Source of the DNA: Clostridia bacterium
GTDB lineage: Bacteria > Bacillota > Clostridia > Christensenellales > Aristaeellaceae
DNA: 39,417 nt
NCBI GenBank assembly: GCA_017512905.1
Contig: JAFWEL010000061.1
Coordinates: forward strand, 1 to 39,417
Reading direction: 5' to 3'
The notes under the pieces were generated by a model. The model had not been told where the DNA came from. It was given only the letters and a program-made list of their open reading frames with translations, and did not search any database. The first letter of the stretch is position 1. Every line of letters starts with the position of its first letter. The position numbers and the translations under genes are program-made. This document shows, one piece after another, positions 1 to 29,711 of this stretch.

Positions 1-185
1 CCGCGGGCCCCGCGCCCGCCCCCAAGGACGCCCGCCCCGGGCACCCCGCCGCCAGCGGGAACCGGGCACCGGGCCCGCCGCCCCACCGCGTACCGCTCGA
101 GAGGTCGCTGTGGGTGCCCACCGCCGACCGATCCTTTCCGCCCCGGGCCCGGGCGGGAAGCCCAAAAGAAAGGAGGAAAGCAGCC
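1..185. other. Very GC-rich stretch without a recognised gene
   Basis: No convincing coding region is seen; open frames here are a by-product of extreme GC. An imperfect hairpin at about 136-159 (TTCCGCCC against GGGCGGGAA, one bulged G) is followed by GCCC and a purine-rich Shine-Dalgarno site at about 170-178. This resembles the tails of the hammerhead cassettes further on (GCGGGAAGCC then AAAGGAGG). No CUGANGA core is present, so it is not called a ribozyme. The operon promoter probably lies before the window. Confidence 0.4.
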
Positions 186-242
186 ATGCCCCGAGCACCA
201 CCCCTACGCCCACACCGGGTCTCACACCCGGACTCCGCCTGA
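186..242 (+). CDS. 18-residue mini-ORF ending inside the first ribozyme core
   Basis: The ATG follows a strong AAAGGAGG site at a good distance. The frame encodes MPRAPPLRPHRVSHPDSA, then stops at TGA (240-242). That TGA is part of the CTGACGA core of the first hammerhead ribozyme. A perfect 6-bp hairpin (215-220 with 226-231) lies within it. It could be a leader peptide whose translation controls ribozyme folding, or the tail of a cassette whose upstream part is outside the window. It is not recognised as a family. Support is only the ribosome-binding site and the stop position, which recurs in two later genes. Confidence 0.4.
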   Translation: MPRAPPLRPHRVSHPDSA

Positions 243-288
243 CGATGGCTGGGAGGGCTCCCAGCCGAAACGCGCACAGCGTCGCGGA
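234..288 (+). ncRNA. Type I hammerhead ribozyme, copy 1
   Basis: Stem I is TCCGC (234-238) with GCGGA (284-288). The core CTGACGA is 239-245. Stem II is GGCTGGGA (247-254) with TCCCAGCC (259-266). GAAA is 267-270. Stem III is CGC (271-273) with GCG (279-281), extended by the A270-U282 pair. Predicted cleavage is after C283, 39 nt before the amidoligase start. One extra base (U246) sits between the core and stem II. Stem I shows a U-A outer pair where most other copies have C-G, which is covariation. Confidence 0.9.
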
Positions 289-322
289 AAGCCCGCACAT
301 TTTTTTGAAGGAGGTTTGCCCC

Positions 323-1255
323 ATGAAAAACCAGACTTTCGGCATCGAAATCGAGCTCAACCACATCTCCCGCGAGAAGGCAGCCCGCGTCATCGCGGCC
401 ACCATCCCCGGCGGCGGCACAGTCCGGCACCCCGGCGGCGCCTACGACAAGTGGCGCGTCACCGGTGTGGACAACCGGAGCTGGAGCGTCGTCACCGACG
501 GCTCCATCGCGGGCCCCCGCGATCAGGCTTCCGAGGTGGTCAGCCCGGTGTGCAAGTGGGAGGACATCGAGACGGTGCAGGCCATCGTCCGGGCCCTCAA
601 GGCGGCGGGCGCGGTCGCCCACAGCTCCTGCGGCATCCACATCCACATCGGCGAGGGGAACCACACCCCGAAGACCCTGCGCAATCTGGTGAACATCGTC
701 AACTCCAAGGAAGACCTGCTCACCCAGTGTCTCCGCATCAGCCCCGAGCGTGGCAGCCAATGGTGCCGCCCGGTCGACCCCGACTTCCTCCGCCGCCTGA
801 ACACCAAGAAGCCCACCACCCGCGAGGACTTCGCCCGGGTGTGGTACAACGACCGCGACTGGGAGAGACACGCCAGCTTCCATTACGACCACAGCCGGTA
901 TCACCTCCTGAACCTGCACAGCGTGTTCCAGAAGGGCACCATCGAGTTTCGGGCCTTCAACAGCACACTCAACGACGGCGAGGTCAAGGCCTACATCCAG
1001 CTGTGCATGGCCATCAGCGCCATGGCTCTCAAGTCGGCCAGCGCCAGCCCCCGGCGCACCGAGACCGACAATCCCGCCTACACCTTCCGGTGCTGGCTCC
1101 TCCGGCTCGAGATGAACGGCCCCGAGTTCAAGACCGCCCGCGAACACCTCATGAAGCACATGCCCGGCAACGCGGCTTGGCGCAATGCCCCGGAAACCGC
1201 CCGGCACAACCCGGATGCTCTCCGGCGCAACAACACCACCGACCGCGACGAGTGA
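323..1255 (+). CDS. Amidoligase (glutamine-synthetase-like fold, Amidoligase_2 family)
   Basis: The 310-residue protein starts at the ATG behind GAAGGAGG; longer frames upstream run through the ribozyme. Near the N-terminus is FGIEIE (an acidic metal-binding strand). The middle has CGIHIHIGEG, and the later part has RYHLLNLHSVF followed by TIEFRAFNST. These are the hallmark blocks of the amidoligase superfamily, which forms amide bonds using ATP. The C-terminal stretch (YTFRCWLLRLEMNG to GNAAW) resembles the end of the protein at 7952-8836, so the two seem related. A class II amidotransferase-like gene lies in the same operon (3504-4106), and such pairs are known for amidoligases. Substrate unknown; peptide or protein modification is a guess from the family. 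Confidence 0.8.
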   Translation: MKNQTFGIEIELNHISREKAARVIAATIPGGGTVRHPGGAYDKWRVTGVDNRSWSVVTDGSIAGPRDQASEVVSPVCKWEDIETVQAIVRALKAAGAVAHSSCGIHIHIGEGNHTPKTLRNLVNIVNSKEDLLTQCLRISPERGSQWCRPVDPDFLRRLNTKKPTTREDFARVWYNDRDWERHASFHYDHSRYHLLNLHSVFQKGTIEFRAFNSTLNDGEVKAYIQLCMAISAMALKSASASPRRTETDNPAYTFRCWLLRLEMNGPEFKTAREHLMKHMPGNAAWRNAPETARHNPDALRRNNTTDRDE

Positions 1256-1294
1256 GTCGCGGCGGTGGGAAGGGAGGCACAGCTTTGAAATCAA

Positions 1295-1352
1295 CCCGCC
1301 TGACGAGTGCTGGGTCGCGCCCAGCCGAAACCGGGCACAGCCCGGTCGCGGG
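1295..1352 (+). ncRNA. Type I hammerhead ribozyme, copy 2
   Basis: Stem I is CCCGC (1295-1299) with GCGGG (1348-1352); the core CTGACGA is 1300-1306. Stem II is GCTGGG (1309-1314) with CCCAGC (1320-1325), closed by G1307-C1326 with U1308 bulged. GAAA is 1327-1330. Stem III is ACCGGGC with GCCCGGT, loop ACA. Predicted cleavage is after C1347. The 3' product can fold GGAAGCC (1351-1357) on GGCTCC (1361-1366). The sequence GCTT at 1282-1285, upstream, could extend stem I by pairing with AAGC after the cleavage site. Confidence 0.93.
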
Positions 1353-1388
1353 AAGCCACAGGCTCCTGAATCGAAAGGAGGTACACCC

Positions 1389-1637
1389 ATGGACCCCATC
1401 ATCACCAAGCGCGTCGGCAACTGGACGCGGGGATACATCGGCCCGTTCCGGTTTGAGATCAAGCATTTCGACGAACCCAGTGTCTTTGGCATCAACGAGG
1501 GCCGCATCAGCAAGCTGTGGCTCAAGCCGAAGGACGGCTCCCAAATCGCCGCGGCCTACGAGCGCGGCTGGGACAAGCGCCCGGAGACCAAGGAGGCACA
1601 GGAGGCGGTGGATACACTCTGCACCCTCTGGAATTGA
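1389..1637 (+). CDS. DUF7678-like small protein
   Basis: The 82-residue protein has an ideal GAAAGGAGGT site before ATG, and contains FGINEGRISKLWLK and AAYERGWDKRP. It is a clear paralogue of the 82-residue protein at 17468-17716, which has FGINGGRISKLTIK and ANYDRGWDVEP. The pattern F-G-I-N-x-G-R-I-S-K-L, a basic strand, then Y-x-R-G-W-D fits my memory of the phage family DUF7678. Biochemical role unknown. It sits between ribozyme copies 2 and 3, so its RNA should be released as a single-gene segment. Confidence 0.7.
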   Translation: MDPIITKRVGNWTRGYIGPFRFEIKHFDEPSVFGINEGRISKLWLKPKDGSQIAAAYERGWDKRPETKEAQEAVDTLCTLWN

Positions 1638-1638
1638 A

Positions 1639-1696
1639 CCCGCCTGACGAGGGCTGGGCGGCACCCAGCCGAAACCGGGCACAGCCCGGTCGCGGG
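1639..1696 (+). ncRNA. Type I hammerhead ribozyme, copy 3 (reference copy)
   Basis: Stem I is CCCGC (1639-1643) with GCGGG (1692-1696); the core CTGACGA is 1644-1650. Stem II is GGCTGGG (1652-1658) with CCCAGCC (1664-1670), loop CGGCA, and one extra G1651. GAAA is 1671-1674. Stem III is ACCGGGC (1674-1680) with GCCCGGT (1684-1690). Predicted cleavage is after C1691. The 5' end of the product can fold as GGGAAGCC (1694-1701), loop ACA, GGCTCCC (1705-1711), with one bulged A. That hairpin uses the same GGG as stem I, so the two are mutually exclusive. GAGAGGAGGT and ATG follow. Confidence 0.95.
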
Positions 1697-1733
1697 AAGC
1701 CACAGGCTCCCAAATCGAGAGGAGGTACTCCCC

Positions 1734-2336
1734 ATGAAAAAATCCACAGTCGAGCGCATGTACAGCGCGAAGGTCGCTCAGCTCCTGAACGACGGCTGGC
1801 ACATCAACACCGGCACCATGCCCGGGCATCAGGGCGAAATTGCACACGTCGACCTCACCGACGGCTCCGAAATCCGAAGGGCCGTGCTGTACCGCGAGAT
1901 GGTCTGGGGCCGCGACGCCTTTGACGGCCACAAAATCTGCATAGTGGTCGGCAGGAACACCGACCGGGTGTACCCGGGCTGGGACTGCACCATCTGGAAC
2001 AACCGCCTCGAGGTGCTCTCCCAAATCGAGCTGGCCGAGATACAGGAGCCCAACCACCGGCACCCCGAGGGCTGGTACACCGACATGGAGACCGCGATGG
2101 ACATCCAGCGCCTCCGGACACAGCGGTGGAAGGCACAGGACTTCGACCTCGAAAAGGAGCTCGGCCCGGCTTTCAAATCGATTGCCCTGCGCTGGCTCCG
2201 GAAACAGCCCCGCATGAAGTCCGCCAAGCTGGAGGACATCACGAAGATGACCCGGTACACCACCTGCGAAGGGAAGGTTGGCTTCAAAATCGAGGCCAAG
2301 GGAAAGACATTCACCCTCCGCGTGAAACCCGCTTGA
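1734..2336 (+). CDS. Unknown 200-residue phage-type protein
   Basis: The start is set by GAGAGGAGGT before ATG. I recognise no named family. The sequence is soluble and mixed, with an N-terminal half rich in beta-strand residues (DGSEIRRAVLYREMVW and KICIVVGRN) and a basic C-terminus (GFKIEAKGKTFTLRVKPA). No signal peptide or membrane segment. The stop codon TGA (2334-2336) lies inside the core of ribozyme copy 4, which reads TTGACGA instead of CTGACGA. A ribosome finishing this gene would therefore cover the ribozyme core. Confidence 0.7.
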   Translation: MKKSTVERMYSAKVAQLLNDGWHINTGTMPGHQGEIAHVDLTDGSEIRRAVLYREMVWGRDAFDGHKICIVVGRNTDRVYPGWDCTIWNNRLEVLSQIELAEIQEPNHRHPEGWYTDMETAMDIQRLRTQRWKAQDFDLEKELGPAFKSIALRWLRKQPRMKSAKLEDITKMTRYTTCEGKVGFKIEAKGKTFTLRVKPA

Positions 2337-2409
2337 CGAGGGCTGGGCGGCACCCAGCCGAAACCGGGCCTGGCCCGGATTGCCCCTACGGGGACAAATA
2401 GACCGCGGG
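2328..2409 (+). ncRNA. Degenerate hammerhead ribozyme, copy 4, with hairpin insertion
   Basis: Stem I (CCCGC 2328-2332 with GCGGG 2405-2409), stem II (GGCTGGG with CCCAGCC), GAAA (2360-2363) and stem III (CCGGGC with GCCCGG) are intact. Two changes should block cleavage. The invariant core C is U (TTGACGA, 2333-2339). The U before the cleavage site is replaced by 25 nt (2379-2403) holding the hairpin GCCCC-TA-CGGGG. The same insertion sits at the same place in copy 8. The downstream product hairpin and leader are kept. Likely inactive, or a recruited structural element. Confidence 0.8.
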
Positions 2410-2446
2410 AAGCCACAGGCTCCCAAATCGAAAGGAGGTACATCCC

Positions 2447-2674
2447 ATGCCCGGAATCACCTACATCATCCGCTTTCATCTCCGCGACGGTCGCATCCCC
2501 TGCGAGGAACAGGAGCACATGGCGCTGGCAGACAGCTGGGAAGCATTCAGGCTTTTCGCGGAACCTGACAGCGCGGAAATCTACACCCGCATCGAGCTGA
2601 TTGCACACGACTGGGAGGACGACACAGAATCGCCCATTGCCAGCTTGGACTTCGCGGAACCGTACAGCTTTTGA
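2447..2674 (+). CDS. Unknown small phage-type protein, 75 residues
   Basis: The start follows GAAAGGAGGT. The protein reads ITYIIRFHLRDGRI, then ADSWEAFRLFAEPDSAEIYTRI, and ends acidic. I recall similar small proteins in clostridial phages (a strand with DGE or DGR, then WEAFRLFAEPDSAEMY) but cannot name a function. It is soluble, with no catalytic motif seen. The stop overlaps the motif CAGCTTTTGAATCG, which also occurs in several gene leaders of this operon, and ribozyme copy 5 begins 5 nt later. Confidence 0.7.
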   Translation: MPGITYIIRFHLRDGRIPCEEQEHMALADSWEAFRLFAEPDSAEIYTRIELIAHDWEDDTESPIASLDFAEPYSF

Positions 2675-2678
2675 ATCG

Positions 2679-2756
2679 CCCGCCTGACGAGGACCCGGCG
2701 GAGGGTCCGCTCCCAGCGGCACCGGGCCGAAACCGGACACCGCGTCTGGTCGCAGG
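2679..2756 (+). ncRNA. Type I hammerhead ribozyme, copy 5, with long stem II cap
   Basis: Stem I is CCCGC (2679-2683) with GCAGG (2752-2756), one C-A mismatch. The core CTGACGA is 2684-2690. Stem II pairs G2691-C2728, G2692-C2727 and CCCGG (2694-2698) with CCGGG (2722-2726), with a 23-nt cap that copy 8 shares. GAAA is 2729-2732. Stem III is ACCGGAC with GTCTGGT (2744-2750). Predicted cleavage is after C2751. The product can fold GGAAGC (2755-2760) on GCTTCC (2785-2790), with an inner GCGAC/GTCGC hairpin. Upstream GCTT (2668-2671) could extend stem I. Confidence 0.88.
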
Positions 2757-2828
2757 AAGCCAGCGACAGTGTCGCAGCCATAGAGCTTCCAAATATCGCA
2801 GGGCTTGCAGCCCGGAAAGGACACCACC

Positions 2829-3095
2829 ATGAACGACACCTTCACCATCGGCAGACAGCGCTTCAGCTGCGGAATCGACCCGCGAACCGGAACCCTGTGC
2901 ATCCAGAGCATCCACCCCTACGACGAGACCAATTACCACTGGGCCCGGCAGGGCGTCACCGGCCACAGCTGGTTCGTGTTCCGCGAGGGAAAGCGCGTCG
3001 CCACCCTCGGCCAGCTGACCAAGGAGCAGGTCGCCCAGGAGCTCCTGAATCTGGACCGGCAGGCACATCTCCATCGGCGCGGCGGCATCTGGTAA
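2829..3095 (+). CDS. Unknown small protein, 88 residues
   Basis: The start is the ATG after GGAAAGGACACCACC. The protein contains FTIGRQRFSCGIDPRTGTLCIQ in its first third, then HWARQGVTGHSWFVFREGKRVATLG and a helical LTKEQVAQELLNLDRQ. No family recognised; no membrane segment. It is the first of two genes (with 3158-3325) between ribozyme copies 5 and 6 and would be released on a two-gene RNA. Confidence 0.65.
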   Translation: MNDTFTIGRQRFSCGIDPRTGTLCIQSIHPYDETNYHWARQGVTGHSWFVFREGKRVATLGQLTKEQVAQELLNLDRQAHLHRRGGIW

Positions 3096-3157
3096 GCTGC
3101 CCGCCGACCCGCTCTCAAATATCCATCACCCGGAAAAACACGAAGGAGGACACCAGA

Positions 3158-3325
3158 ATGTACGAAATCGCATGGAAGGAAATCACCGCCCGGGGACGCA
3201 TCGTGTGCAAACGCAGGGCTTTCAGATCCGAGAGCGCCCGCGAGACCTACATCGACCAGCTCGTTCAGAAGGACAGCTTCTATGAGATCATCGGCCTGCG
3301 CGACCCGCTGTGGCCGCGGGGCTGA
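3158..3325 (+). CDS. Unknown basic small protein, 55 residues
   Basis: The ATG is preceded by GAAGGAGGACACCAGA. The protein reads MYEIAWKEITARGRIVCKRR, then a charged helix and IIGLRDPLWPRG. It is small, basic and soluble. No ribozyme lies between it and the preceding gene; the 62-nt gap instead has a CTCTCAAATATCC element resembling the other leaders. About 70 nt of untranslated sequence follow before ribozyme copy 6. Function unknown. Confidence 0.6.
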   Translation: MYEIAWKEITARGRIVCKRRAFRSESARETYIDQLVQKDSFYEIIGLRDPLWPRG

Positions 3326-3397
3326 TCCCCCGGAGGATGTACAACCACTCGCAGAGTTATCTTGACTTTCCGCCCCACCAGAGTGATTTATGTTACG

Positions 3398-3460
3398 CCC
3401 GCCTGACGATGGCCTCCGGCACAGGCCGAAACGCTCCGGAATCGAGAGGAGCGTCGCGGG
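3398..3460 (+). ncRNA. Type I hammerhead ribozyme, copy 6
   Basis: Stem I is CCCGC (3398-3402) with GCGGG (3456-3460); the core CTGACGA is 3403-3409. Stem II is GGCCT (3411-3415) with AGGCC (3423-3427), with extra U3410. GAAA is 3428-3431. Stem III is ACGCTCC (3431-3437) with GGAGCGT (3448-3454). Predicted cleavage is after C3455. The stem III cap (GGAATCGAGA) plus GGAG copies the leader element AATCGAGAGGAG found before other genes, so a Shine-Dalgarno-like sequence is buried in this stem. The product can fold GGGAGC (3458-3463) on GCTTCC (3472-3477). Confidence 0.92.
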
Positions 3461-3503
3461 AGCCAACGACAGCTTCCAAATATACATTCAGGAGGTACCA
3501 ACC

Positions 3504-4106
3504 ATGTGCATCATTTGTGTTTCCCCCAAGCGTGTCCGCCAGCCCAACGTCACAACTATCCGCAGAATGTTCCGGAACAACCCCGACGGCGCGGGGTACA
3601 TGGTCGCCCGCGACGGCAAGGTCACCATCAGCAAGGGCTTCATGGACGTCGATGAATACATCGAGGCCATCCGCGCTGAACACTTTACCGCCAAGGACCC
3701 GGTGGTGTACCACTTCCGCATCAGCACCCAGGCGGGTGTGAACCCCCAGATGACCCATCCCTTCCCGCTTTCAAATCGAATTGAGCACATGAAGGTGCTG
3801 GATGTGGAGTGCTCCTGCGGGGTCGCACACAACGGGATCATCCGCCTGACCACAGACCGGAATAACCGCGAGTACAGCGATACCGCACTGTTCATCGCCA
3901 ACTACCTCTCCCTGATCATCCGCGAGCCCGGCGACCTGAAGGACGAGCGCATCCTGACGCTCATCCACCGGTTGGCTGGCTCCAAGCTGGCCATTATGGA
4001 CGGTGACGGATACATCGCCACCGTCGGAGAGTACATCAACCAGAAGGGCCTCCTCTTCAGCAACACCAGCTTTGAAACCGACACCTATTACCGGCGCTTC
4101 AGGTAA
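3504..4106 (+). CDS. Class II glutamine-amidotransferase-like Ntn hydrolase
   Basis: The 200-residue protein begins MCIIC, so removal of Met exposes Cys2, the catalytic nucleophile of N-terminal-nucleophile amidotransferases. Matching blocks follow: NNPDGAGYMV near residue 28, DG and an F-rich strand, YHFRISTQAGVNPQMTHPFP near residue 70-90, and CGVAHNGII near residue 110. In the family these supply the glutamine and oxyanion pocket. It probably releases ammonia from glutamine or acts as an amidohydrolase. The amidoligase at 323-1255 is a natural partner. GGAGGTACCAACC gives a clear start. Assignment is by motif only. Confidence 0.75.
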   Translation: MCIICVSPKRVRQPNVTTIRRMFRNNPDGAGYMVARDGKVTISKGFMDVDEYIEAIRAEHFTAKDPVVYHFRISTQAGVNPQMTHPFPLSNRIEHMKVLDVECSCGVAHNGIIRLTTDRNNREYSDTALFIANYLSLIIREPGDLKDERILTLIHRLAGSKLAIMDGDGYIATVGEYINQKGLLFSNTSFETDTYYRRFR

Positions 4107-4126
4107 TCCCCCTGAAGCGCCCACCC

Positions 4127-4184
4127 TCCGCCTGACGAGCAGCCCTGCGGCACAGGGCCGAAACCGGGGCCACCCGGTCGCGGA
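4127..4184 (+). ncRNA. Type I hammerhead ribozyme, copy 7
   Basis: Stem I is TCCGC (4127-4131) with GCGGA (4180-4184); the core CTGACGA is 4132-4138. Stem II is GCCCTG (4142-4147) with CAGGGC (4153-4158), closed by G4139-C4159 with CA bulged. GAAA is 4160-4163. Stem III is ACCGGG with CCCGGT (4173-4178). Predicted cleavage is after C4179. The product hairpin GGAA-A-GC with GC-TTCC (4182-4188 with 4195-4200) keeps the bulged A of copy 3 with changed base pairs, which supports it. Confidence 0.95.
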
Positions 4185-4222
4185 AAGCCACGACGCTTCC
4201 GAATCGAGAGGAGGAACACCCC

Positions 4223-4567
4223 ATGAAGAACACCCCTGAAGTCCGCCGCCTGTTCGACCAAATGATTGACATCGCGGCACACCTGACCAACGGCTATCAA
4301 ATCGAGACTATGCACTATCGTGATGGCGACGGAATCTCCCTTCGCATCCACAAGCCTGCCGAAACCGAGTGGGCGGTGTATCCGGAAATATACTTTTCCG
4401 ATAACTGGTATGGCACCGAGTGTGTGCGCTTAGATATCATCACGACCGGCTATGGAAATCACAGCCTCCGGCAAGCGCAGCGCGTAACCACCGGGCTCCT
4501 CGCCGCCACCAATCTGGTCCAGAACCTGTACATGGCCGCTGAGGTCGCCGGGTTCACCATCAAGTGA
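4223..4567 (+). CDS. Unknown protein, 114 residues, first of a tandem pair
   Basis: The start follows GAGAGGAGGAACACCCC. The protein begins MKNTPEVRRLFDQMIDIAAHLTNGY in its first 25 residues and contains VYPEIYFSDNWYG and a C-terminal helix LAATNLVQNLYMAAEVAGF. The next gene (4602-4946) is the same length and shares the layout NTPExR, GYQ, AxPxxYFxD, and the gly-aspartate/asparagine-HS-Q-x-R-x-x-x-G region, so the two are duplicates. No known family recognised; soluble. It is released together with its copy, because no ribozyme separates them. Confidence 0.7.
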   Translation: MKNTPEVRRLFDQMIDIAAHLTNGYQIETMHYRDGDGISLRIHKPAETEWAVYPEIYFSDNWYGTECVRLDIITTGYGNHSLRQAQRVTTGLLAATNLVQNLYMAAEVAGFTIK

Positions 4568-4601
4568 TCCACAGCTTTTGAATCGAGAGGAGGAACTCCC
4601 C

Positions 4602-4946
4602 ATGACGAATACACCTGAAAACCGCCATGCCCTCGAAACCATGGCCCGCCTCGCAAACGCGCTGAACACCGGCTATCAGGTTTTCAGCCGCGTCACCGAC
4701 AATAAAAAGTACGTTGTCCTGGACATGTATTGCCCGGGAGACACCGACCAGATCGCCTATCCTGCCGTGTATTTCTGTGACGCCTTTGTAGATGAAAGCG
4801 GCATTTCCTTTGAAATCATCCCCAACATCTACGGTGACCACAGTCGCGAGCAGACCCGGCGCATGATGAAAGGGTTCGGGATTGCCATGGAGCTGGTCGA
4901 TGTACTGTATGCCACGGCAAAGGTCTTTGGAATACAGACCGTTTGA
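4602..4946 (+). CDS. Unknown protein, 114 residues, second of a tandem pair
   Basis: A paralogue of 4223-4567 with matching blocks: TPENRHALETMARLANALNTGYQ, YPAVYFCDAF, YGDHSREQTRRMMKGF and a final helix ending AKVFGI. The leader between the two genes (35 nt) carries CAGCTTTTGAATCGAGAGGAGG but no ribozyme. The duplication therefore either did not include a ribozyme or has lost it. Function unknown. Confidence 0.7.
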   Translation: MTNTPENRHALETMARLANALNTGYQVFSRVTDNKKYVVLDMYCPGDTDQIAYPAVYFCDAFVDESGISFEIIPNIYGDHSREQTRRMMKGFGIAMELVDVLYATAKVFGIQTV

Positions 4947-4950
4947 ATCC

Positions 4951-5052
4951 CCGCCTGACGAGCAGCCCGGCGGAGGGTCCGCTCCCAGCGGCACCGGGCC
5001 GAAACCGGACACCGCGTCCGGATTGCCCCTAACGGGGACAAATAGACCGTGG
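4951..5052 (+). ncRNA. Hammerhead ribozyme, copy 8, with hairpin insertion at the cleavage site
   Basis: Stem I is CCGC (4951-4954) with GTGG (5049-5052), including a G-U pair. The core CTGACGA (4955-4961) is intact. Stem II is GCCCGG (4965-4970) with CCGGGC (4994-4999), closed by G4962-C5000 with CA bulged; its 23-nt cap matches copy 5. GAAA is 5001-5004. Stem III is CCGGAC (5005-5010) with GTCCGG (5016-5021). The U before cleavage is replaced by 26 nt (5022-5047) with hairpin CCCC-TAA-CGGGG, as in copy 4. Cleavage is not expected by the usual NUH rule. Confidence 0.82.
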
Positions 5053-5102
5053 AAGCCGCAGCGCTTTCAAATACAGAGGGCAATGCCCGGAAAGGATACA
5101 CC

Positions 5103-5366
5103 ATGAGCAAGAGACTGAGCGACGAAAACTCCGTGTGGATGTACGAGGATGACGACCGGGAGGACGACACCTTCACTGACACCGACCTGCAGAACGGTCT
5201 GGCACAGCTGATCACCGGCGACTGGGAATACGGCACCGAGGTCAATTGGGAGAACCTGCGGGTTCAGACCTTCGACAACGCAGGCATCATGACCTACAAC
5301 AAGGGGCTGGTCATCACGCTGCCCGACGGGAGCGAATTCCAGCTCACCATTGTGCAGAGCCGCTGA
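5103..5366 (+). CDS. Unknown acidic protein, 87 residues
   Basis: The start follows GGAAAGGATACACC. The N-terminal third is strongly acidic (MYEDDDREDDTFTDTD) and the C-terminus forms two strands (GLVITLPDGSEFQLTIVQSR). This layout occurs in small phage proteins of unknown role. No catalytic residues seen. It is the first gene after ribozyme copy 8 and is followed without ribozymes by 5422-5622 and 5644-5826. Confidence 0.65.
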   Translation: MSKRLSDENSVWMYEDDDREDDTFTDTDLQNGLAQLITGDWEYGTEVNWENLRVQTFDNAGIMTYNKGLVITLPDGSEFQLTIVQSR

Positions 5367-5421
5367 CACACGGCTCCTGAATCGAGACCAACAACACCGA
5401 TGAAAATGGGAGGATACTTCC

Positions 5422-5622
5422 ATGATGAAAAACCTGACTTATCGTAACCTCATGATCGTGATCAGGAAGATCATGAAGAAGGGCTACGACTTCAGCACAT
5501 CCGAACGACTTGCCCGGAATATCTTCTGCGATTTTGCGGCCTGCCCCAGCGGGAAGTCCATCGAAGAGCGTATCAGCCTGATCCTCACCGCCGAAGAATA
5601 CACAGCGGAATACAGTAAATAG
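5422..5622 (+). CDS. Unknown basic helical protein, 66 residues
   Basis: The start is one of two adjacent ATG codons after GGGAGGATACTTCC. The protein begins with a basic amphipathic stretch (LTYRNLMIVIRKIMKKGYDF) and ends SIEERISLILTAEEYTAEYSK. It is short and helical, perhaps protein-binding. No family recognised. The gap to the next gene is only 21 nt with an AAGGAGG site. Confidence 0.6.
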   Translation: MMKNLTYRNLMIVIRKIMKKGYDFSTSERLARNIFCDFAACPSGKSIEERISLILTAEEYTAEYSK

Positions 5623-5643
5623 CCACAGCAAGGAGGTCACCAC

Positions 5644-5826
5644 ATGGATAACAACTTTAACACCAAGGATTGCATCACCGCCGTGCAGCACTTTGCCAAT
5701 GAACACGGCAAGGAGGAAGCTTACCAGTCGGCCACATGGCTCTTCAAGGCGCAGATCATCACCCAGGAACAATGGAGCGCCATGGTTCACGCGCTTTACG
5801 ACGACGAACCCTCCGCCCCCGCCTGA
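5644..5826 (+). CDS. Unknown small protein, 60 residues, stop codons form a ribozyme core
   Basis: The start follows AAGGAGGTCACCAC. The protein is helical (ITAVQHFANEHGKEEAYQSA, then TWLFKAQIITQEQW). The gene ends TGA TGA (5824-5829), and these bases with the preceding C are the CTGATGA core of ribozyme copy 9. The last two codons also supply part of stem I. This is a clear overlap of a coding end with a catalytic RNA. Function unknown. Confidence 0.65.
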   Translation: MDNNFNTKDCITAVQHFANEHGKEEAYQSATWLFKAQIITQEQWSAMVHALYDDEPSAPA

Positions 5827-5880
5827 TGAGCAGCCCTGCGGTACAGGGCCGAAACCGGGTGACCCGCACCCGGTCGCGGG
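5818..5880 (+). ncRNA. Type I hammerhead ribozyme, copy 9
   Basis: Stem I is CCCGC (5818-5822) with GCGGG (5876-5880). The core is CTGATGA (5823-5829), differing from the others at the one free core position. Stem II is GCCCTG (5833-5838) with CAGGGC (5844-5849), closed by G5830-C5850 with CA bulged. GAAA is 5851-5854. Stem III is ACCGGGT with ACCCGGT (5868-5874). Predicted cleavage is after C5875. The downstream product hairpin is weak here. Confidence 0.94.
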
Positions 5881-5914
5881 AAACCGACGCTTTGAAATAC
5901 AGGAGGTCATCACC

Positions 5915-6133
5915 ATGAAAAACACTTCCAAGCCCGTCTACAACCTCGAAACCTGTCTGGACATTCTTGATTGGTTCAACGACCCCGATTTCGAGTATAT
6001 CAACCACATCCTCGTCAGCAAGCTGGACGGCGAAGAGCGCGTCCGCCGGGCGCTGCCCCTCATCGCGAAGCACTGCGTAGAACTCATCCGCGCCCACGCC
6101 AATACTCCTGCGGCCTACCCGGTAGCTGGCTGA
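5915..6133 (+). CDS. Unknown small protein, 72 residues
   Basis: The start is the ATG after CAGGAGGTCATCACC; a longer open frame upstream overlaps the ribozyme and is not credible. The protein reads YNLETCLDILDWFNDPDFEY, then HILVSKLDGEERVRRALPLIAKHCVELI and a proline-alanine tail. It is acidic to neutral and helical. No family recognised. It shares a predicted two-gene RNA with 6170-6412. Confidence 0.6.
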   Translation: MKNTSKPVYNLETCLDILDWFNDPDFEYINHILVSKLDGEERVRRALPLIAKHCVELIRAHANTPAAYPVAG

Positions 6134-6169
6134 CACAGCTTTCAAATAAAGTATGAAAGGAGCTGCACT

Positions 6170-6412
6170 ATGAGCAACAACAGTTTCGACCTGCCTGGCT
6201 TCCTGCTGGGCGAGGTCTATGGCCCGATGAAGCAGGAGGGCGAGAGGCTTGTGTGGTCGATGGCCGACGCCATAAGCCTGGCCGACGACCTGAAACAACA
6301 CGATGGAATCGACGCCGATCCACAGGAAATCTTCGAGCTCATGATGGAGTTCGACCGGCAGGACGCTGAAGAACAATGTTCATCAAACCCGCCTGACGAT
6401 GGCCTCCGGTAA
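6170..6412 (+). CDS. Unknown acidic protein, 80 residues, reading into ribozyme copy 10
   Basis: The start follows GAAAGGAGCTGCACT. The sequence is helical and acidic (FLLGEVYGPMKQEGERLVWS, DGIDADPQEIFELMMEFDRQ). The last eight codons (NPPDDGLR) run through stem I, the core and half of stem II of ribozyme copy 10, and the TAA stop (6410-6412) lies in the stem II loop. The tail is thus dictated by the ribozyme sequence. Function unknown. Confidence 0.6.
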   Translation: MSNNSFDLPGFLLGEVYGPMKQEGERLVWSMADAISLADDLKQHDGIDADPQEIFELMMEFDRQDAEEQCSSNPPDDGLR

Positions 6413-6472
6413 GGGCCGAAACCACCGACGGTTCAAAGCAGCACAGCTTTTGAATCGAGTGGTGGTCGCGGG
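6388..6472 (+). ncRNA. Type I hammerhead ribozyme, copy 10, with extended stem III
   Basis: Stem I is CCCGC (6388-6392) with GCGGG (6468-6472); the core CTGACGA is 6393-6399. Stem II is GGCC (6401-6404) with GGCC (6414-6417). GAAA is 6418-6421. Stem III is ACCACC (6421-6426) with GGTGGT (6461-6466), and inside it a second helix pairs GGTTCAAAGC (6430-6439) with GCTTTTGAATC (6446-6456). Predicted cleavage is after C6467. The inner helix contains the CAGCTTTTGAATCGAG leader element. Confidence 0.9.
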
Positions 6473-6517
6473 AACCATTGAGCCCTAAATACCATCTGAT
6501 CAAGAGGAGGTACACCC

Positions 6518-6901
6518 ATGGAAGGATTTTTCAAGGTCAAACAGTCTGGCGGCAGCTATGTGGTTGCTGTTTTCTACAACCCCTACACTGGCGAAACCCG
6601 GTCCGAATGTGTCCGCGATTACGATTACGGCGATTGCAGCCGGGATAACGATGAGCTGTACAATATGCCCATCGACGAGGAAGTCCGAAGCCTATGGCTT
6701 CACAGCCAGGGCCAAATCATGGCTGGAGACACCGTTGAAGTCTTCAAAGGCCGCAAGGTGCCGAGGGGCACGATTGCGACAGTGAAGAGCATTCGCCCTT
6801 ATTACGACCGCTATGGTCGGTGGGTCGCAGATTATGCGTACTTCACCGATGGCCAGCGCACGAACATCGAAAACTGCCGACTGCTTTTGAAACAGGCATA
6901 A
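6518..6901 (+). CDS. Unknown protein, 127 residues, with KOW-like C-terminal half
   Basis: The start follows AAGAGGAGGTACACCC. The N-terminal half has strands (GGSYVVAVFYNPYTGETRSE). The C-terminal half reads GDTVEVFKGRKVPRGTIATV near residue 70-90, which resembles a KOW or SH3-like barrel of the kind that binds RNA or ribosomal partners, then GQRTNIENCRLLL. This is the last gene of the ribozyme operon; a strong terminator follows 17 nt after the stop. RNA binding is only a guess from the motif. Confidence 0.65.
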   Translation: MEGFFKVKQSGGSYVVAVFYNPYTGETRSECVRDYDYGDCSRDNDELYNMPIDEEVRSLWLHSQGQIMAGDTVEVFKGRKVPRGTIATVKSIRPYYDRYGRWVADYAYFTDGQRTNIENCRLLLKQA

Positions 6902-6917
6902 CCACCAGGCAAGATTG

Positions 6918-6944
6918 CCGCTTCCGCGAGGAGGCGGTTTTTTT
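6918..6944 (+). terminator. Intrinsic terminator of the ribozyme operon
   Basis: CCGCTTCC (6918-6925) pairs with GGAGGCGG (6930-6937) across a GCGA tetraloop, with one wobble, followed by seven T. It directly follows the last plus-strand gene and precedes convergent minus-strand genes. Confidence 0.92.
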
Positions 6945-7122
6945 GTATTCCAGCGCTTTCAAATCGAGCGGCCCGTCGCCGCGACGTTTGCCCCACATTC
7001 GCGCCACGGGCGGCGGTCGGGAAAACCCTCGAGTCCCCGGGCACGGGCCGAACGTGGGCCCATTGTGGGCGCGACGCGGGCGAAGGAAAAGCGACCCGCC
7101 GCAAGGCAAGCCGCTTTCAAAC
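6945..7122. other. GC-rich gap between convergent operons
   Basis: No gene is supported. Two copies of the element GCTTTCAAA occur (6955 and 7103 regions). The middle is GC-rich with short inverted patches and no CUGANGA core. No clear terminator for the minus-strand operon is seen here. Confidence 0.4.
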
Positions 7123-7419
7123 CTAACCGGTGATCTGTTGAATCTCGCTGGGCTTGTCCTCCAGCACCACCATCATGATCCTCGCCCCGGTCTGGAACCC
7201 GGCGGCGTAATCCTCGCGGCGCAGAATGGCATTCGCTTCATCGATGGAGTTCTCGAATACACGGAATATCATTTTCTGCTTCTCCGTCAGCGTTTCGAGC
7301 AGCTCCTCCTCCGCGACCACAGCGGCGTCATATGCGCGGGAATAGGCCTTGCCCTTCTCATATTCCATCTGATCCCGGCTGAGCTTCCCGTCGAACAGCT
7401 CGTGCAGCACATTCCGCAT
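7123..7419 (-). CDS. DUF6809-like phage protein
   Basis: The 98-residue protein begins NVLHELFDGKLSRDQMEYEKG, then has a helical LLETLTEKQKMIFRVFENSI and ends AAGFQTGARIMMVVLED. This order (LYxGxI/L near the start, LxxKLxxEQKxxF in the middle, GFxxGARMMxE near the end) matches the small family DUF6809, common in clostridial phages and of unknown role. It overlaps the preceding gene by one base, so translation is probably coupled. It is the last gene of the long minus-strand block. Confidence 0.7.
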   Translation of the reverse strand: MRNVLHELFDGKLSRDQMEYEKGKAYSRAYDAAVVAEEELLETLTEKQKMIFRVFENSIDEANAILRREDYAAGFQTGARIMMVVLEDKPSEIQQITG

Positions 7420-7955
7420 CAGGCGTCGACCTCCTGCTTGCCCGTCACATCATGGGCAATCTCGATCTTGCCATCGTTCATCCGGAAGCGCAGGACCAGC
7501 TCGCCATCGCGCACAGCGTAGGTGACCATGAAGGGCTGCTCCCAAATCTCCTTGAGGCCCTTGCAGTGTTCCTTCACATCGATACGCTGCTCCGCGAAAT
7601 CATCCTGGGTATTGCCGTTGATCCAGTCCGTGAATACATCCTTCAGGTAATCAAGCTGTGTTTCCTGAATCTCCCTCCAGGCATCCTCGCCGGTGACAGC
7701 TTTGAAATCGCCGTCGGGACGGTGGGGCCTGAAGCATGCCCACTGTGTCAGGGGCATCGGGTTGCCCATGAAGGCCAGCTTGGCCTCGCTCATACCGCAG
7801 TCATCGCAGACCATGATGTCCGCCTGACGGCTGAGGGCGTTGGTGTAGATCGCGGGCTTCATGGTGTCGCAGCCGCAGCGGGGGCAGGCCATGTGCTCGC
7901 CCGCCTCCTGCCTGGCTTTCAAATCCGCAAGAATCCTCTGCATACGCTCATTCAT
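7419..7955 (-). CDS. Unknown zinc-ribbon phage protein
   Basis: 178 residues. Near residue 24 is CPRCGCD and about 25 residues later CDDCG, a four-cysteine zinc-ribbon. The rest is mixed, with NGNTQDDFAEQRIDVKEH and a C-terminal strand pair (YAVRDGELVLRFRMNDGKIE). The ribbon suggests nucleic-acid or protein binding. It overlaps the gene upstream (7952-8836) by four bases. No named family recognised. Confidence 0.65.
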   Translation of the reverse strand: MNERMQRILADLKARQEAGEHMACPRCGCDTMKPAIYTNALSRQADIMVCDDCGMSEAKLAFMGNPMPLTQWACFRPHRPDGDFKAVTGEDAWREIQETQLDYLKDVFTDWINGNTQDDFAEQRIDVKEHCKGLKEIWEQPFMVTYAVRDGELVLRFRMNDGKIEIAHDVTGKQEVDA

Positions 7956-8836
7956 CTTCTGTCCGCCTCCTCATTCACTTCACGTCGTATCCGCCTGATC
8001 TCTTTGTACTTGTCCCTGTGCTTCTGCGCCCGGGTCTCATCCGGGAACGCGCAATAGCCGTTGAGCTTCTGAATCATCCTGCGGCGCAGCGCCTTGTGCT
8101 CGGTGCCGCCACAGCCCAGCCGGATCAGCCAGCTGTGCATGTAGTAGCGCTCGTTGTCCGGCGTCTGCAGCACCGGATGGGTGCGCGTCGCCGACTGTGC
8201 GCAGTTGACGATCAGCTTGAAGAGCTTTCCGAACAGGGCCCACTCGGTGGGATTCTCCTTATCCCGCGGGAAGCTCATCGTCACCTTGCCGTCCTCGTAC
8301 ATGAAGCCCTCCAGCATATCGAGGCCATGCGCGTCCTTCAGAATCATGCTGAACTCCTCCATGCTCGCAGGGGTGTATTCCTGGAGCCTGGAAATCAGGT
8401 TCTTGTCGATGGTCAGCACATCCAGGCCCAACGCGTGGTTCAGTAACACCTGCTTGGTGTACAGCATGAACACCAGGTTCTTCAAGCCGAGGACCGTCAT
8501 GTCCGGAACCGGAAAGGTGATGGAAACCAGCGACGCGTCCGCGATGGCTCCTGTCTCCGGTTCCTCGTCTGCTGCCTGGTCATCCTCGGCCTCCGCCTCC
8601 GCGGGAGCTCCAAAATCGTCAGGCTGTGCGTAGCCCTCCGAAATCAGGAACTCCCTGATCGGGGTGAAATCGTCACCGATGATGGCACCTTCAAAGTCTA
8701 CTGTGAAAGCACCGACCGTGTATGCCTTGCTGGGCATGCCTTCGTAGTGGGGACGGACCCCCAGGTACTCGCCGAGCGCCTTCACCATCTCTTTGCGGTT
8801 GAAGGTTTCCGCTTCTGTGTGTCTCGTGAGCCGCAT
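7952..8836 (-). CDS. Mobile-element 'virulence-related' protein, amidoligase-like C-terminus
   Basis: The start chosen is the ATG giving MRLTRHTEAE, because AAAAGGAGG lies 8 nt before it; a frame 33 nt longer lacks such a site. The 294-residue protein has MxLT, a YEGMPSKAYTVGAF block, an acidic linker near residue 85-110, and a C-terminal block YYMHSWLIRLGCGGTEHKAL then LNGYCAFPD. Families with this layout are common in clostridial mobile elements and are often labelled virulence proteins. The final block matches the end of the amidoligase at 323-1255, suggesting shared ancestry, but I do not see FGIEIE or HIHIG residues, so activity is doubtful. Confidence 0.6.
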   Translation of the reverse strand: MRLTRHTEAETFNRKEMVKALGEYLGVRPHYEGMPSKAYTVGAFTVDFEGAIIGDDFTPIREFLISEGYAQPDDFGAPAEAEAEDDQAADEEPETGAIADASLVSITFPVPDMTVLGLKNLVFMLYTKQVLLNHALGLDVLTIDKNLISRLQEYTPASMEEFSMILKDAHGLDMLEGFMYEDGKVTMSFPRDKENPTEWALFGKLFKLIVNCAQSATRTHPVLQTPDNERYYMHSWLIRLGCGGTEHKALRRRMIQKLNGYCAFPDETRAQKHRDKYKEIRRIRREVNEEADRR

Positions 8837-8936
8837 CCGAAAATCCTCCTTTTCGCGTGGTAGTGACATTAACGCTCTTTACGCGCCGGAAGTCAAGCCG
8901 TTTGAGTCATCTGTGAATGATAAATGTAAGCGTCAT

Positions 8937-27264: not shown

Positions 27265-27302
27265 GCATCCGTAAAACACCACTGAGATTGGAGGTGCCCA
27301 CT

Positions 27303-29711
27303 ATGACCCTGAACCTGGCTGCATATTTGAACATTCTGGATCACTGCGTTGTGGACGGCATAACGCACACGGAGCTGCTTTCTGCGCTGATTTCCACCGT
27401 TGATCCAGCTGAAACACTGACCTCGGATCAGAAGTATGTCAGCAGGATTTTTGCAGGCGAACGTGGCTTCCCCAAGACGCCAGGTAAAAAAGGCTGCGGC
27501 GACCCCGATTCCACAGGCAGTACGACAACAGTTTTTCCTATGCTCCTATACGTGGAGTCCGACCAGCTTGCAGATCAGTTTCATAAGAAGGTGCTTCCGC
27601 TGCTTGACAGCGATAGAGCGAATGAGATTTTTCTGGCGCTCCGACATGTCGTTCAGGGCGACACGTCCATTTTCAAAAGCAATGCAGCGAAGTTTGAGTC
27701 ATGGACCGGATGGGAGCCGACGGATTTCGTATATCTCCAGCATGTCGATTTCTGTGCGATGCTGGCTGGCTTATTTAGATATGTCGTTCTGGTTGGGAAA
27801 TACACCACTGGCATATCCACGCTTAAAACCATAAAGTCCGACAAGTTCTGGGAAGACCTGCAGCCCATGAAGCATTTCATGATCGTCGATGGCTTTGGCA
27901 CCAAACACGAGCTTGTGTCGGTCAGCCTCCTTCAGGGCCTCGACAGCTATCTCCACAGAATCCGCGAAGAGTATTCTTTTGTGAAAACCTTCTTTGATTG
28001 GAAGCCGTACTTTGATTTCGATGAACTGTTTGTCTGCAACGACATTCAGCCACAGGACTCCAAGGGCAGCAGCCGGAAAAAGGCCCTGCAGAATGCTACT
28101 GTGCGTGAACTTCGGACTGTGGGTTCCCGGCTTATCCTGTACGGTATCGGGGGAATCGGAAAATCCATGATGCTCCGCCATCTCCTGTTCGACACAATCG
28201 ACAGGGTCGATGAGCTCAATGTGGTTCCGTTCTTCATCTGTTTGCGGAATTATCAATCTGGGGGCACTCTCGAGCAGTACATTCTGGATCAGACCCAGCC
28301 CAAGTGGCCCGGCCTGGACGCTGCCATTCTGAGGGAGCTGTTGAACAGTGGAAAGGCCATCCTTCTGCTGGATGGACTCGATGAGGTCAAGAGCTGTGAT
28401 TTCGCCATACTGCGCAACATGCTGAACCAGATTGTTCAGGATTATCCGAAGTGCCAGTTCATCATGTCATCCAGACCCTTCGACAATCACTTTAGCTCTT
28501 ATACTCAGTTCAGGGTCGCCGAGGTCTGCGGGCTGCGGATCGAGCAGGTGTATGAGCTGGTTGACAGGGTGGGGTTCATGGAGAAGAATCCGGAACGCCG
28601 CGCCGCGTTCAAGGATCTCGTCAGGAGCAAGCTGTACTCTCACGATGAGGCATTCTGCAAGAATCCTCTGCTCCTGACCATCATGATGCTGATATATGAA
28701 CAGCACCGCACAATCCCGACCCGCCGCCATGAGTTCTACAATGAGGCATTCGCCGTGCTCTTCCAGCGGCATGACCTGAACAAGGACGGATTCATGCGGG
28801 ACCTGCGGAGCAAGCTGAGCGAAACAGAGTTCAAAGACATTTTCGCGGAATTCTGCGCAAAGACGTATTTTCGGGAGAAGTTCGAGTTCACGAAAGACCA
28901 GTTCATAGGCATCGTGTCCTCCTTGAATTCCTGGCGGAAGGTGAAGGACAGGACGGGCACGGACCAGTTTCTGATCGACGCCTGCGTAAATCTGTGCATC
29001 ATGGATGAATGCCGGACAGAGTACCGCTTTATCCACAGGTCCTTCCAGGAATACTTCTGCGCCTGCTGGCTGAGGGACAAGTCGGACGCACAGTTGACTG
29101 CGAAGATTGAGTTCTTTGAAGCCCAGCAGAAGCGGACCATGGAGGACTGCGTTTTCTCCATGCTGCACGAAATGGCCGAGGAACGTGTTGATGAACACAT
29201 GATCATCCCTGTACTGGAACGCTGCCTGTCTCAGCAGGATGGCATTCCCGGCTACTGGTCGTATCTGATGAACCAGTATCCCACGATTCCTTATGTGGTC
29301 GGGAAGGACATCGATATGCCCTTCAACCCGCAGTCTGCGATTCTGCTCTATATTCTGGAAAAGGAGTCCTTCCTGCACGACGATCTTGTCCCTGACGAGA
29401 TTCCGCATGAGGACATCTTCACCAGGCAGATCTATTTTGATCATGCGCAGGACACACCGGCAGACCCTTCCGAGGAGCGTCGAATCATCTCAGCGTACCG
29501 GGAGCGCGGATTGGATGCCAATGTAGTCCGCTGGGACATGGAAATCGAAACGAAACAGCTGTATGAGTTCAGAGTGGGCTGCCAGGAGTTGGTGTCCTGG
29601 TTTGAATCTCCCAAGTGCCCTTTATGGAATGAATACTTGGCTATCAAGAGCTATTACGACAGCCTGAAAAAGAAAATCACGATGCTGAATGAGGATTTTC
29701 TCTCCGCATGA
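27303..29711 (+). CDS. NACHT-domain NTPase, probable anti-phage defence protein
   Basis: 802 residues from the ATG behind TTGGAGGTGCCCACT. An N-terminal domain of about 270 residues with no recognised fold precedes the NTPase. Walker A GIGGIGKS is at 281-288, Walker B LLLDGLDE at 354-361 and the SSR sensor at 389-391. The region after it includes FIHRSFQEYFCACWL, typical of NACHT proteins, and a helical C-terminus without clear repeats. NACHT proteins of this build act as STAND-type phage sensors in bacteria. The N-terminal domain would be the effector or an adaptor. Genes for a DHH enzyme and a WYL regulator follow. Confidence 0.85.
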   Translation: MTLNLAAYLNILDHCVVDGITHTELLSALISTVDPAETLTSDQKYVSRIFAGERGFPKTPGKKGCGDPDSTGSTTTVFPMLLYVESDQLADQFHKKVLPLLDSDRANEIFLALRHVVQGDTSIFKSNAAKFESWTGWEPTDFVYLQHVDFCAMLAGLFRYVVLVGKYTTGISTLKTIKSDKFWEDLQPMKHFMIVDGFGTKHELVSVSLLQGLDSYLHRIREEYSFVKTFFDWKPYFDFDELFVCNDIQPQDSKGSSRKKALQNATVRELRTVGSRLILYGIGGIGKSMMLRHLLFDTIDRVDELNVVPFFICLRNYQSGGTLEQYILDQTQPKWPGLDAAILRELLNSGKAILLLDGLDEVKSCDFAILRNMLNQIVQDYPKCQFIMSSRPFDNHFSSYTQFRVAEVCGLRIEQVYELVDRVGFMEKNPERRAAFKDLVRSKLYSHDEAFCKNPLLLTIMMLIYEQHRTIPTRRHEFYNEAFAVLFQRHDLNKDGFMRDLRSKLSETEFKDIFAEFCAKTYFREKFEFTKDQFIGIVSSLNSWRKVKDRTGTDQFLIDACVNLCIMDECRTEYRFIHRSFQEYFCACWLRDKSDAQLTAKIEFFEAQQKRTMEDCVFSMLHEMAEERVDEHMIIPVLERCLSQQDGIPGYWSYLMNQYPTIPYVVGKDIDMPFNPQSAILLYILEKESFLHDDLVPDEIPHEDIFTRQIYFDHAQDTPADPSEERRIISAYRERGLDANVVRWDMEIETKQLYEFRVGCQELVSWFESPKCPLWNEYLAIKSYYDSLKKKITMLNEDFLSA

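Follow-up and report, generated by a model that had tools for sequence, protein, structure and literature searches.

The stretch analysed here, hereafter the window, is the whole 39,417-nucleotide contig JAFWEL010000061.1 of a Clostridia bacterium (family Aristaeellaceae, assembly GCA_017512905.1), which looks like a prophage and carries matches to phage families of DNA polymerase A, an SNF2-type helicase and a VapE-type primase. On its plus strand, between positions 186 and 6944, the genes of an apparent operon are interspersed with ten hammerhead ribozyme motifs, whose core positions C3 lie at 239, 1300, 1644, 2333, 2684, 3403, 4132, 4955, 5823 and 6393. A first-pass annotation, made from the sequence alone, had named these ten core positions, and all ten were found there. 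The motifs partition the genes, designated by letters, as A / L / I / B / K E / C / D D / F M N / H G / O, that is, into groups of one to three. Judged by comparison with other copies, the motifs are real hammerheads and not chance matches, and those of the window are type I hammerheads of a bacterial and phage subtype in which one or two extra nucleotides separate A9 from helix II and loop II forms a short pseudoknot with the strand just 3' of stem I.

The window was scanned with a strict rule set comprising a YUGANGA core, a 4-bp stem I, a 3-bp stem II, GAA, a 4-bp stem III starting from A15.1-U16.1, and H17. Seven copies passed on the plus strand (239, 1300, 1644, 3403, 4132, 5823 and 6393), with no match on the minus strand or elsewhere in the 39 kb; the same rules gave a mean of 0.05 matches (maximum 1) in 60 dinucleotide shuffles of the whole window and none in 300 shuffles of 186-6944. 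Copy 2684 was rejected solely for one mismatch in stem I (CCCGC versus GCAGG), and in copies 2333 and 4955 U16.1-C17 is replaced by a hairpin insert (AUUGCCCCU..CGGGGACAAAUAGACC), leaving these two without a cleavable junction. The core CUGANGA and GAAA with A15.1-U16.1 are present in eight copies, the failures being 2333 (C3U and no U16.1) and 4955 (no U16.1). The first-pass annotation had counted eight copies with U-C at the cleavage site, correctly, as H17 is C in eight of the ten, and its eight cleavage positions coincide with H17 (as predicted positions only), seven from the strict scan and 2751 from the sequence. Its description of every copy as having the full core and a closing stem I stands in part: copy 2333 has C3U, and stem I closes fully in the seven strict-rule copies but has one mismatch in 2684. 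The one or two additional nucleotides that it saw at the base of stem II do occur in all ten copies; none has helix II directly after A9, and the window copies were therefore filed as a variant rather than as textbook type I. Of the ten copies, eight are probably active, and the other two (2333 and 4955) have probably been inactivated. Stability alone would not have revealed the copies, since a fold better than those of 98% of shuffles was obtained for two slices only (1644, with 1/200 shuffles as good, and 6393, with 4/200).

For comparison, viral and genome collections were searched for loci with an exact GC-rich pattern, and genomes of the same genus were added. The frequencies given below hold for this pattern-collected sample only, among the matches listed, and only rows with identical sequences were collapsed, which leaves related copies that are not independent of each other. 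Scanning 273 sources with a descriptor yielded at least 309 distinct type I hammerheads: 156 have one extra nucleotide after A9, 117 have none, in 33 a bulge follows the first pair of helix II, and 3 are others. Insertion-class and canonical copies stand side by side in single arrays (L063, L025). Three matches taken to be due to chance (L187, L254 and L197:7765) were excluded from the counts of placement and product hairpins, leaving 306, with more rows lost at contig ends; the pseudoknot count left out L187, L197:7765 and loops outside 3-14 nt, leaving 302, of which 275 are distinct.

In 40 aligned insertion-class copies, 97.3% of the cells are paired versus 76.7% when shuffled, and all three helices covary, with II and III closed and I open; the first-pass annotation had claimed covariation between the window copies. 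Stems I-III were selection criteria in this alignment, so their covariation partly reflects selection. The pseudoknot, in which GGN of loop II pairs with N'CC 3' of stem I, was not selected. Its pair 25-63 in the same alignment is CG in 21 copies, UA in 8, GC in 6, UG in 3 and AU in 2, with 0/40 unpaired, and a Watson-Crick run of at least four occurs in 166/275 distinct loop and flank pairs, against 77 (maximum 100) when these are re-paired or shuffled. Conservation was also read from 40 copies outside the retrieval pattern: the core is the consensus in 31, U4C in 8 and G12A in 1, and H17 in the 31 free consensus-core copies is C in 23, A in 7, U in 1 and G in none. The eight U4C cores come from the arrays L044, L047, L154, L186, L238 and L306.

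The Rfam search that the first-pass annotation had proposed returned nothing in the window at gathering thresholds, and no hammerhead in 1-7200 at E<=10. In short slices Hammerhead_1 (RF00163) was seen for copy 239 alone, at 15.4 bits against a cut-off of 34; no window copy reaches the cut-off of RF02276 (37 bits), and RAGATH-1 hammerhead (RF03152, cut-off 56.3 bits) gave only two 16.2-bit matches, elsewhere in the genome. A canonical Paenibacillus copy likewise falls below the Hammerhead_1 cut-off (25.1 bits), making an Rfam miss weak evidence. Searching 15 hammerhead-bearing loci with Rfam yielded no hammerhead and one RAGATH-5 ribozyme candidate (53.6 bits, L218:4861-4913, minus strand), on a contig stretch with several hammerheads. 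A covariance model built partly from same-genus copies (R1), with copy 1644 included, listed nine of the ten window copies genome-wide at E<=2e-5, all except 4955; its next matches (E 0.318) overlap type II hammerheads, and the first other match has E 0.67. Those type II hammerheads, in the same genome, lie above the RF02276 cut-off at 41.8 and 38.3 bits, in four places, two each on contigs C15 and C120. They are permuted (L001:3076-3135 and 3846-3903, with a near-copy in L002) and share the extra U after A9; about 1 kb downstream of them, on those other contigs, there is a type I copy. As Rfam thresholds miss this subtype, its abundance is underestimated.

The low Rfam scores, the additional nucleotides beside the core in 10/10 copies and the loss of the cleavage site in two would also suit degenerate, inactive hammerheads retained as hairpins that stabilise the mRNA or guide RNase processing. 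This we hold to be very improbable, for the core and H17 are conserved, insertion and canonical copies share the arrays L063 and L025, and insertions of one or two nucleotides are, according to passages of PMC10085705, known in accepted alignments.

The placement of the copies as gene separators, another claim of the first-pass annotation, is well supported by the comparison. An upstream open reading frame (ORF) led by a Shine-Dalgarno (SD) sequence could be assigned for 181/306 hammerheads, and 46 of these 181 ORFs terminate at the core UGA itself, whereas random CTGA sites end an SD-led ORF in 96/1502 cases. An earlier count of 80/269 core-UGA stops was inflated by spurious ORFs in GC-rich DNA and was replaced by this SD-led count. 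Most other upstream stops lie 7-27 nt before C3 (91/172 unambiguous), and 209/306 copies are followed by an SD-led start codon, its median distance from the cut being 46 nt. Three window copies, 239, 2333 and 5823, supply the upstream stop codon with their core UGA, and that of 239 ends an 18-codon ORF (186-242) with a good SD sequence. As a conserved leader peptide this ORF was rejected: it is kept in the window and in the related genomes G010 and G006, and its frame is lost in G019.

This overlap raises another reading, in which cutting is regulated: ribosomes ending the upstream gene would hold the core open, and cleavage would have to wait until translation upstream is weak or over. The excess of core-UGA stops over random CTGA sites speaks for it, as do copies 239, 2333 and 5823 in the window and the ORF before 6393, which extends 17 nt past C3. 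On the other hand, 125/306 copies have no assigned SD-led upstream ORF, copies 3403 and 1300 sit 80 and 47 nt past the stop, the 18-codon ORF common to the window, G010 and G006 loses its frame in G019 and is not shown for G048, and the overlap may be mere compactness. We judge regulated cutting unlikely as the explanation; a gating of cutting by translation termination is the point of greatest interest.

A second regularity lies just downstream of the cut. The 40 nt after it fold at -9.54 kcal/mol versus -6.91 kcal/mol when the tail is shuffled (n=305), and in 159/288 copies the 3' 4-mer of stem I has its reverse complement at +8..+24, versus 22 (maximum 35) in shuffles. The excess persists where loop II lacks GCGG or GTGG (107/206 versus 16, maximum 29). 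In the window, strong 5' hairpins are predicted for eight of the ten copies: those similar to the one of the downstream product of hammerhead 1 are predicted to start no more than 4 nt from the cut position after 1300, 1644, 2333, 2684, 3403, 4132 and 4955, while those after 5823 and 6393 are weak. These patterns suggest a strand swap in which, after cutting, the stem I strand would re-pair with its own downstream sequence.

The first-pass annotation had asked for the same arrangement in relatives, and it was found in same-genus genomes and in a virus record. Across 28 genomes of the genus R1 had matches in 12 (own genome 11, G010 10, G006 9, G019 5, others fewer), the ten of G010 lying within one contig region. 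The virus record behind L145 (46,038 bases) has 16 R1 matches in 8 kb and 14 matches by strict geometry, almost one per gene border; 17 of its ORFs were compared with the other arrays and the window at E<=0.01 and none matched, the best reaching 0.022 over 10 residues. Arrays with very different stems exist (L303). Two phage records listed under Ca. Heliusvirales, PV036454.1 and PV036419.1, carry part of the operon, with three and two R1 matches in it and no ribozyme among the annotated features in the stretches viewed; PV036413.1 had no R1 match. A search of a plasmid collection gave no match, and the idea that the arrangement is common in the class was dropped, because R1 with stricter filters matched 1/148 genomes, the own one. 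Judged by these searches, the arrangement is recurrent but restricted.

Between the syntenic arrays of the window, G010 and G006, individual copies differ in state. The counterpart of window copy 4955 in G010 (L023:5298) is intact, whereas that of 5823 (L023:6142) carries the hairpin insert; the counterparts of 2333 in G010 and G006 also carry the insert, the one in G006 having GUAA for GAAA, and those of 2684 lack the loop II enlargement. Altogether the insert occurs in five copies across three genomes, and the gaps that hold it vary from genome to genome. The idea of a wider mobile element was rejected for it: a 16-base probe gave two exact matches in the viral collection, neither with hammerhead context.

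The three arrays also differ by whole hammerhead-gene units. The two window hammerheads around the DUF7678 gene correspond to a single one in G010 and G006, which joins the upstream flank of 1300 to the downstream gene of 1644, and G010 has one additional unit with the same signature. The leader there in G006 resembles that of the first copy as far as the start codon, placing the exchange point somewhere in the repeat of hammerhead plus leader and not always in the ribozyme. Such differences would be expected if the repeats mattered mainly as DNA, as homology blocks for the gain, loss and shuffling of single-gene units, with cutting incidental; the changing order of recurring gene families between ten arrays and the inserts in loop II and stem III of different copies in different genomes point the same way. 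However, homology blocks need not keep C3-A9, GAA, a non-G H17 and a covarying pseudoknot while the stems change, some arrays (L303) have very different stems, and the clean unit differences examined number two. A role mainly as DNA thus seems distinctly unlikely to us.

The comparison reveals the fold, the pseudoknot, the placement and the potential for product hairpins, and we infer cleavage in the window copies. As proposed, each intact copy would fold during transcription and cut after C17. The upstream message would carry a 2',3'-cyclic phosphate at its end, which would lie within the folded ribozyme a few tens of nucleotides past the stop codon, and the downstream one would begin with a 5'-OH about 40-80 nt ahead of the following start codon. 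The 3' strand of stem I, once freed, would in most copies pair just downstream and form a 5' hairpin; this hairpin would compete with stem I, which should help the product to leave, and should also shield the new end. The long transcript would thereby be divided into RNAs that each carry one to three genes. We likewise infer cleavage in the cell, the chemistry and protection of the ends and the independent expression of the pieces. Such phage messages, then, probably cut themselves into gene-sized pieces, and we consider it likely that working ribozymes dice the transcript of the window in this way.

Several observations weigh against this conclusion. The Rfam Hammerhead_1 and RAGATH-1 models do not recognise the window copies, all of which have additional nucleotides beside the core; hammerhead 2 (1300) is without the pseudoknot; and at minimum free energy 2684, 4132 and 4955 adopt folds other than the hammerhead, the centroid of 4132 being a hammerhead. 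The persistence of the decayed or dead pair indicates that cutting at every gap is not essential. A control in which the hairpin complement was not reversed reached 47/288, also above the shuffle mean, so part of the hairpin excess is composition. Finally, the scan of 1-7300 gave no promoter-like site on the plus strand and six terminator-like sites on both strands, below the shuffle mean of 8.6, so that a single transcription unit is suggested by collinearity.

The features are collected in Table 1. The small proteins of the operon are mostly without family assignment. Just beyond it, on the minus strand, lies a second amidoligase-like gene (7952-8869, phrog_2443 E 1.9e-22), and further along the contig a NACHT-domain protein (27288-29711, plus strand) with a short NACHT-associated C-terminal domain (PF05729, PF22720) adjoins genes for a DHH phosphoesterase and a WYL regulator, making it a possible defence gene.

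Table 1 Hammerheads, genes and associated elements of the array; hammerheads are numbered along the plus strand, and E values marked R1 are those of the covariance model.
Feature	Position	Strand	Remarks
Hammerhead 1 (C3 239)	233..293	+	Predicted cleavage 283/284; strict geometry; U inserted after A9; loop II GGGC pairs with GCCC in 3' flank; R1 E 4.5e-10
Predicted 5' hairpin of hammerhead 1 downstream product	284..296	+	GCGG..CCGC
Amidoligase gene	323..1255	+	PF12224 E 6.2e-63; phrog_2443 E 1.9e-92
Hammerhead 2 (C3 1300)	1294..1357	+	Predicted cleavage 1347/1348; strict geometry; bulge after G10.1-C11.1; loop UCGCG, without GGC for pseudoknot; R1 E 2.8e-12
DUF7678 gene	1389..1637	+	PF24726; missing together with one hammerhead in G010 and G006
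Hammerhead 3 (C3 1644)	1638..1701	+	Predicted cleavage 1691/1692; strict geometry; R1 E 9.2e-14 (copy is in model)
Gene of unknown function	1734..2336	+	Stop codon is UGA of hammerhead 4; phrog_38037
Hammerhead 4 (C3 2333), probably dead	2327..2414	+	C3U; hairpin insert; R1 E 4.9e-7
Hairpin insert in hammerhead 4	2380..2404 (boundaries approximate)	+	In place of U16.1-C17
Genes of unknown function	2447-2674, 2829-3095, 3158-3325	+	
Hammerhead 5 (C3 2684)	2678..2761	+	Predicted cleavage 2751/2752; loop II enlarged; R1 E 2.0e-5
Hammerhead 6 (C3 3403)	3397..3465	+	Predicted cleavage 3455/3456; strict geometry; R1 E 4.5e-8
200-aa gene	3504..4106	+	Weak match only, to unnamed phage family phrog_25883, E 1.6e-5
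Hammerhead 7 (C3 4132)	4126..4189	+	Predicted cleavage 4179/4180; strict geometry; R1 E 3.0e-10
Paralogous small genes	4223-4567, 4602-4946	+	
Hammerhead 8 (C3 4955), probably dead	4949..5058	+	Hairpin insert; not listed by R1 at E<=5
Hairpin insert in hammerhead 8	5023..5048 (boundaries approximate)	+	In place of U16.1-C17
Small genes	5103-5366, 5422-5622, 5915-6133	+	
Small gene	5644-5826	+	Stop is UGA of hammerhead 9
Hammerhead 9 (C3 5823)	5817..5885	+	Predicted cleavage 5875/5876; strict geometry; loop GGU pairs with ACC; R1 E 5.9e-9
Small gene	6170-6412	+	Runs 17 nt into hammerhead 10
Hammerhead 10 (C3 6393)	6387..6477	+	Predicted cleavage 6467/6468; strict geometry; long stem III; loop GGU pairs with ACC; R1 E 4.0e-8
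Final operon gene	6518..6901	+	Function unknown
Terminator-like hairpin with T run	6917..6938	+	Sole plus-strand site among 6 found in 1-7300

More tentatively, and with more doubt than confidence, we suggest a general unit of RNA punctuation in some phages, in which the invariant UGA of the core could serve as the upstream stop, the cut would set the leader and the freed strand would form the 5' hairpin. Genes could then join as ribozyme-gene units that bring their own mRNA processing, one transcript would behave as many short ones, and the terminating ribosome would gate cutting. The ten-copy series, with its two natural, probably dead copies, the single-unit differences between syntenic arrays and the array of 14-16 copies without detectable shared genes, offers a direct test system: ends are predicted for eight places in a single transcript, and changing one base would remove any of them. 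Should cutting be confirmed, phages would have in RNA self-cleavage a systematic route to short mRNAs, complementing RNases.

Hammerheads in bacterial and phage genomes have been described before, and the review PMC6155905 treats their role, in the passages concerned, as an open question. Passages of PMC10085705 describe an enrichment of hammerheads in the neighbourhood of phage genes and of other self-cleaving ribozymes. In PMC3088659 (Perreault et al. 2011), as far as its text goes, hammerheads flank prophage genes, processing into gene-length mRNAs is proposed, and cleavage is reported for three tandem sets in vitro and for one set in E. coli. The first-pass annotation knew of no series of this size; the claim of an unmatched series is not supported in view of the ten copies in G010, the nine in G006, the 14-16 in the virus record and the clusters published in 2011. 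In our literature search, from which many subscription papers were absent, no series of ten, core-UGA stop or product hairpin was described, and the word ribozyme does not occur in the Heliusviridae paper PMC9226167. The length and regularity of the series, the use of the core UGA as upstream stop and the conserved 5' product hairpin are thus apparently new.

Set beside known systems, the window copies share with Rfam Hammerhead_1 the order of elements, the core, the open stem I and cleavage at UH, and differ in the extra nucleotides after A9, with the best score well short of the cut-off. Hammerhead_II has two permuted copies in the same host genome that pass its threshold and share the extra U after A9, whereas the window copies are type I with stem I open. 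With the non-circularly permuted hammerheads, as presented in passages of PMC10085705, the core is identical, and the window copies keep the ordinary type I order; the same source, in those passages, gives insertions between CUGAnGA and the adjacent stems in known alignments as never above one or two nucleotides. The clusters of PMC3088659 are the closest in kind, with hammerheads at gene borders of phage operons, the same processing idea and pseudoknots between stem I and stem II. The text of that paper speaks of tandem and triple sets, while here there are ten copies and in the other virus record 14-16, near one per border, a comparison that leaves its figures and data sets aside, where longer series are possible. 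The array represents a known arrangement in a long and regular form.

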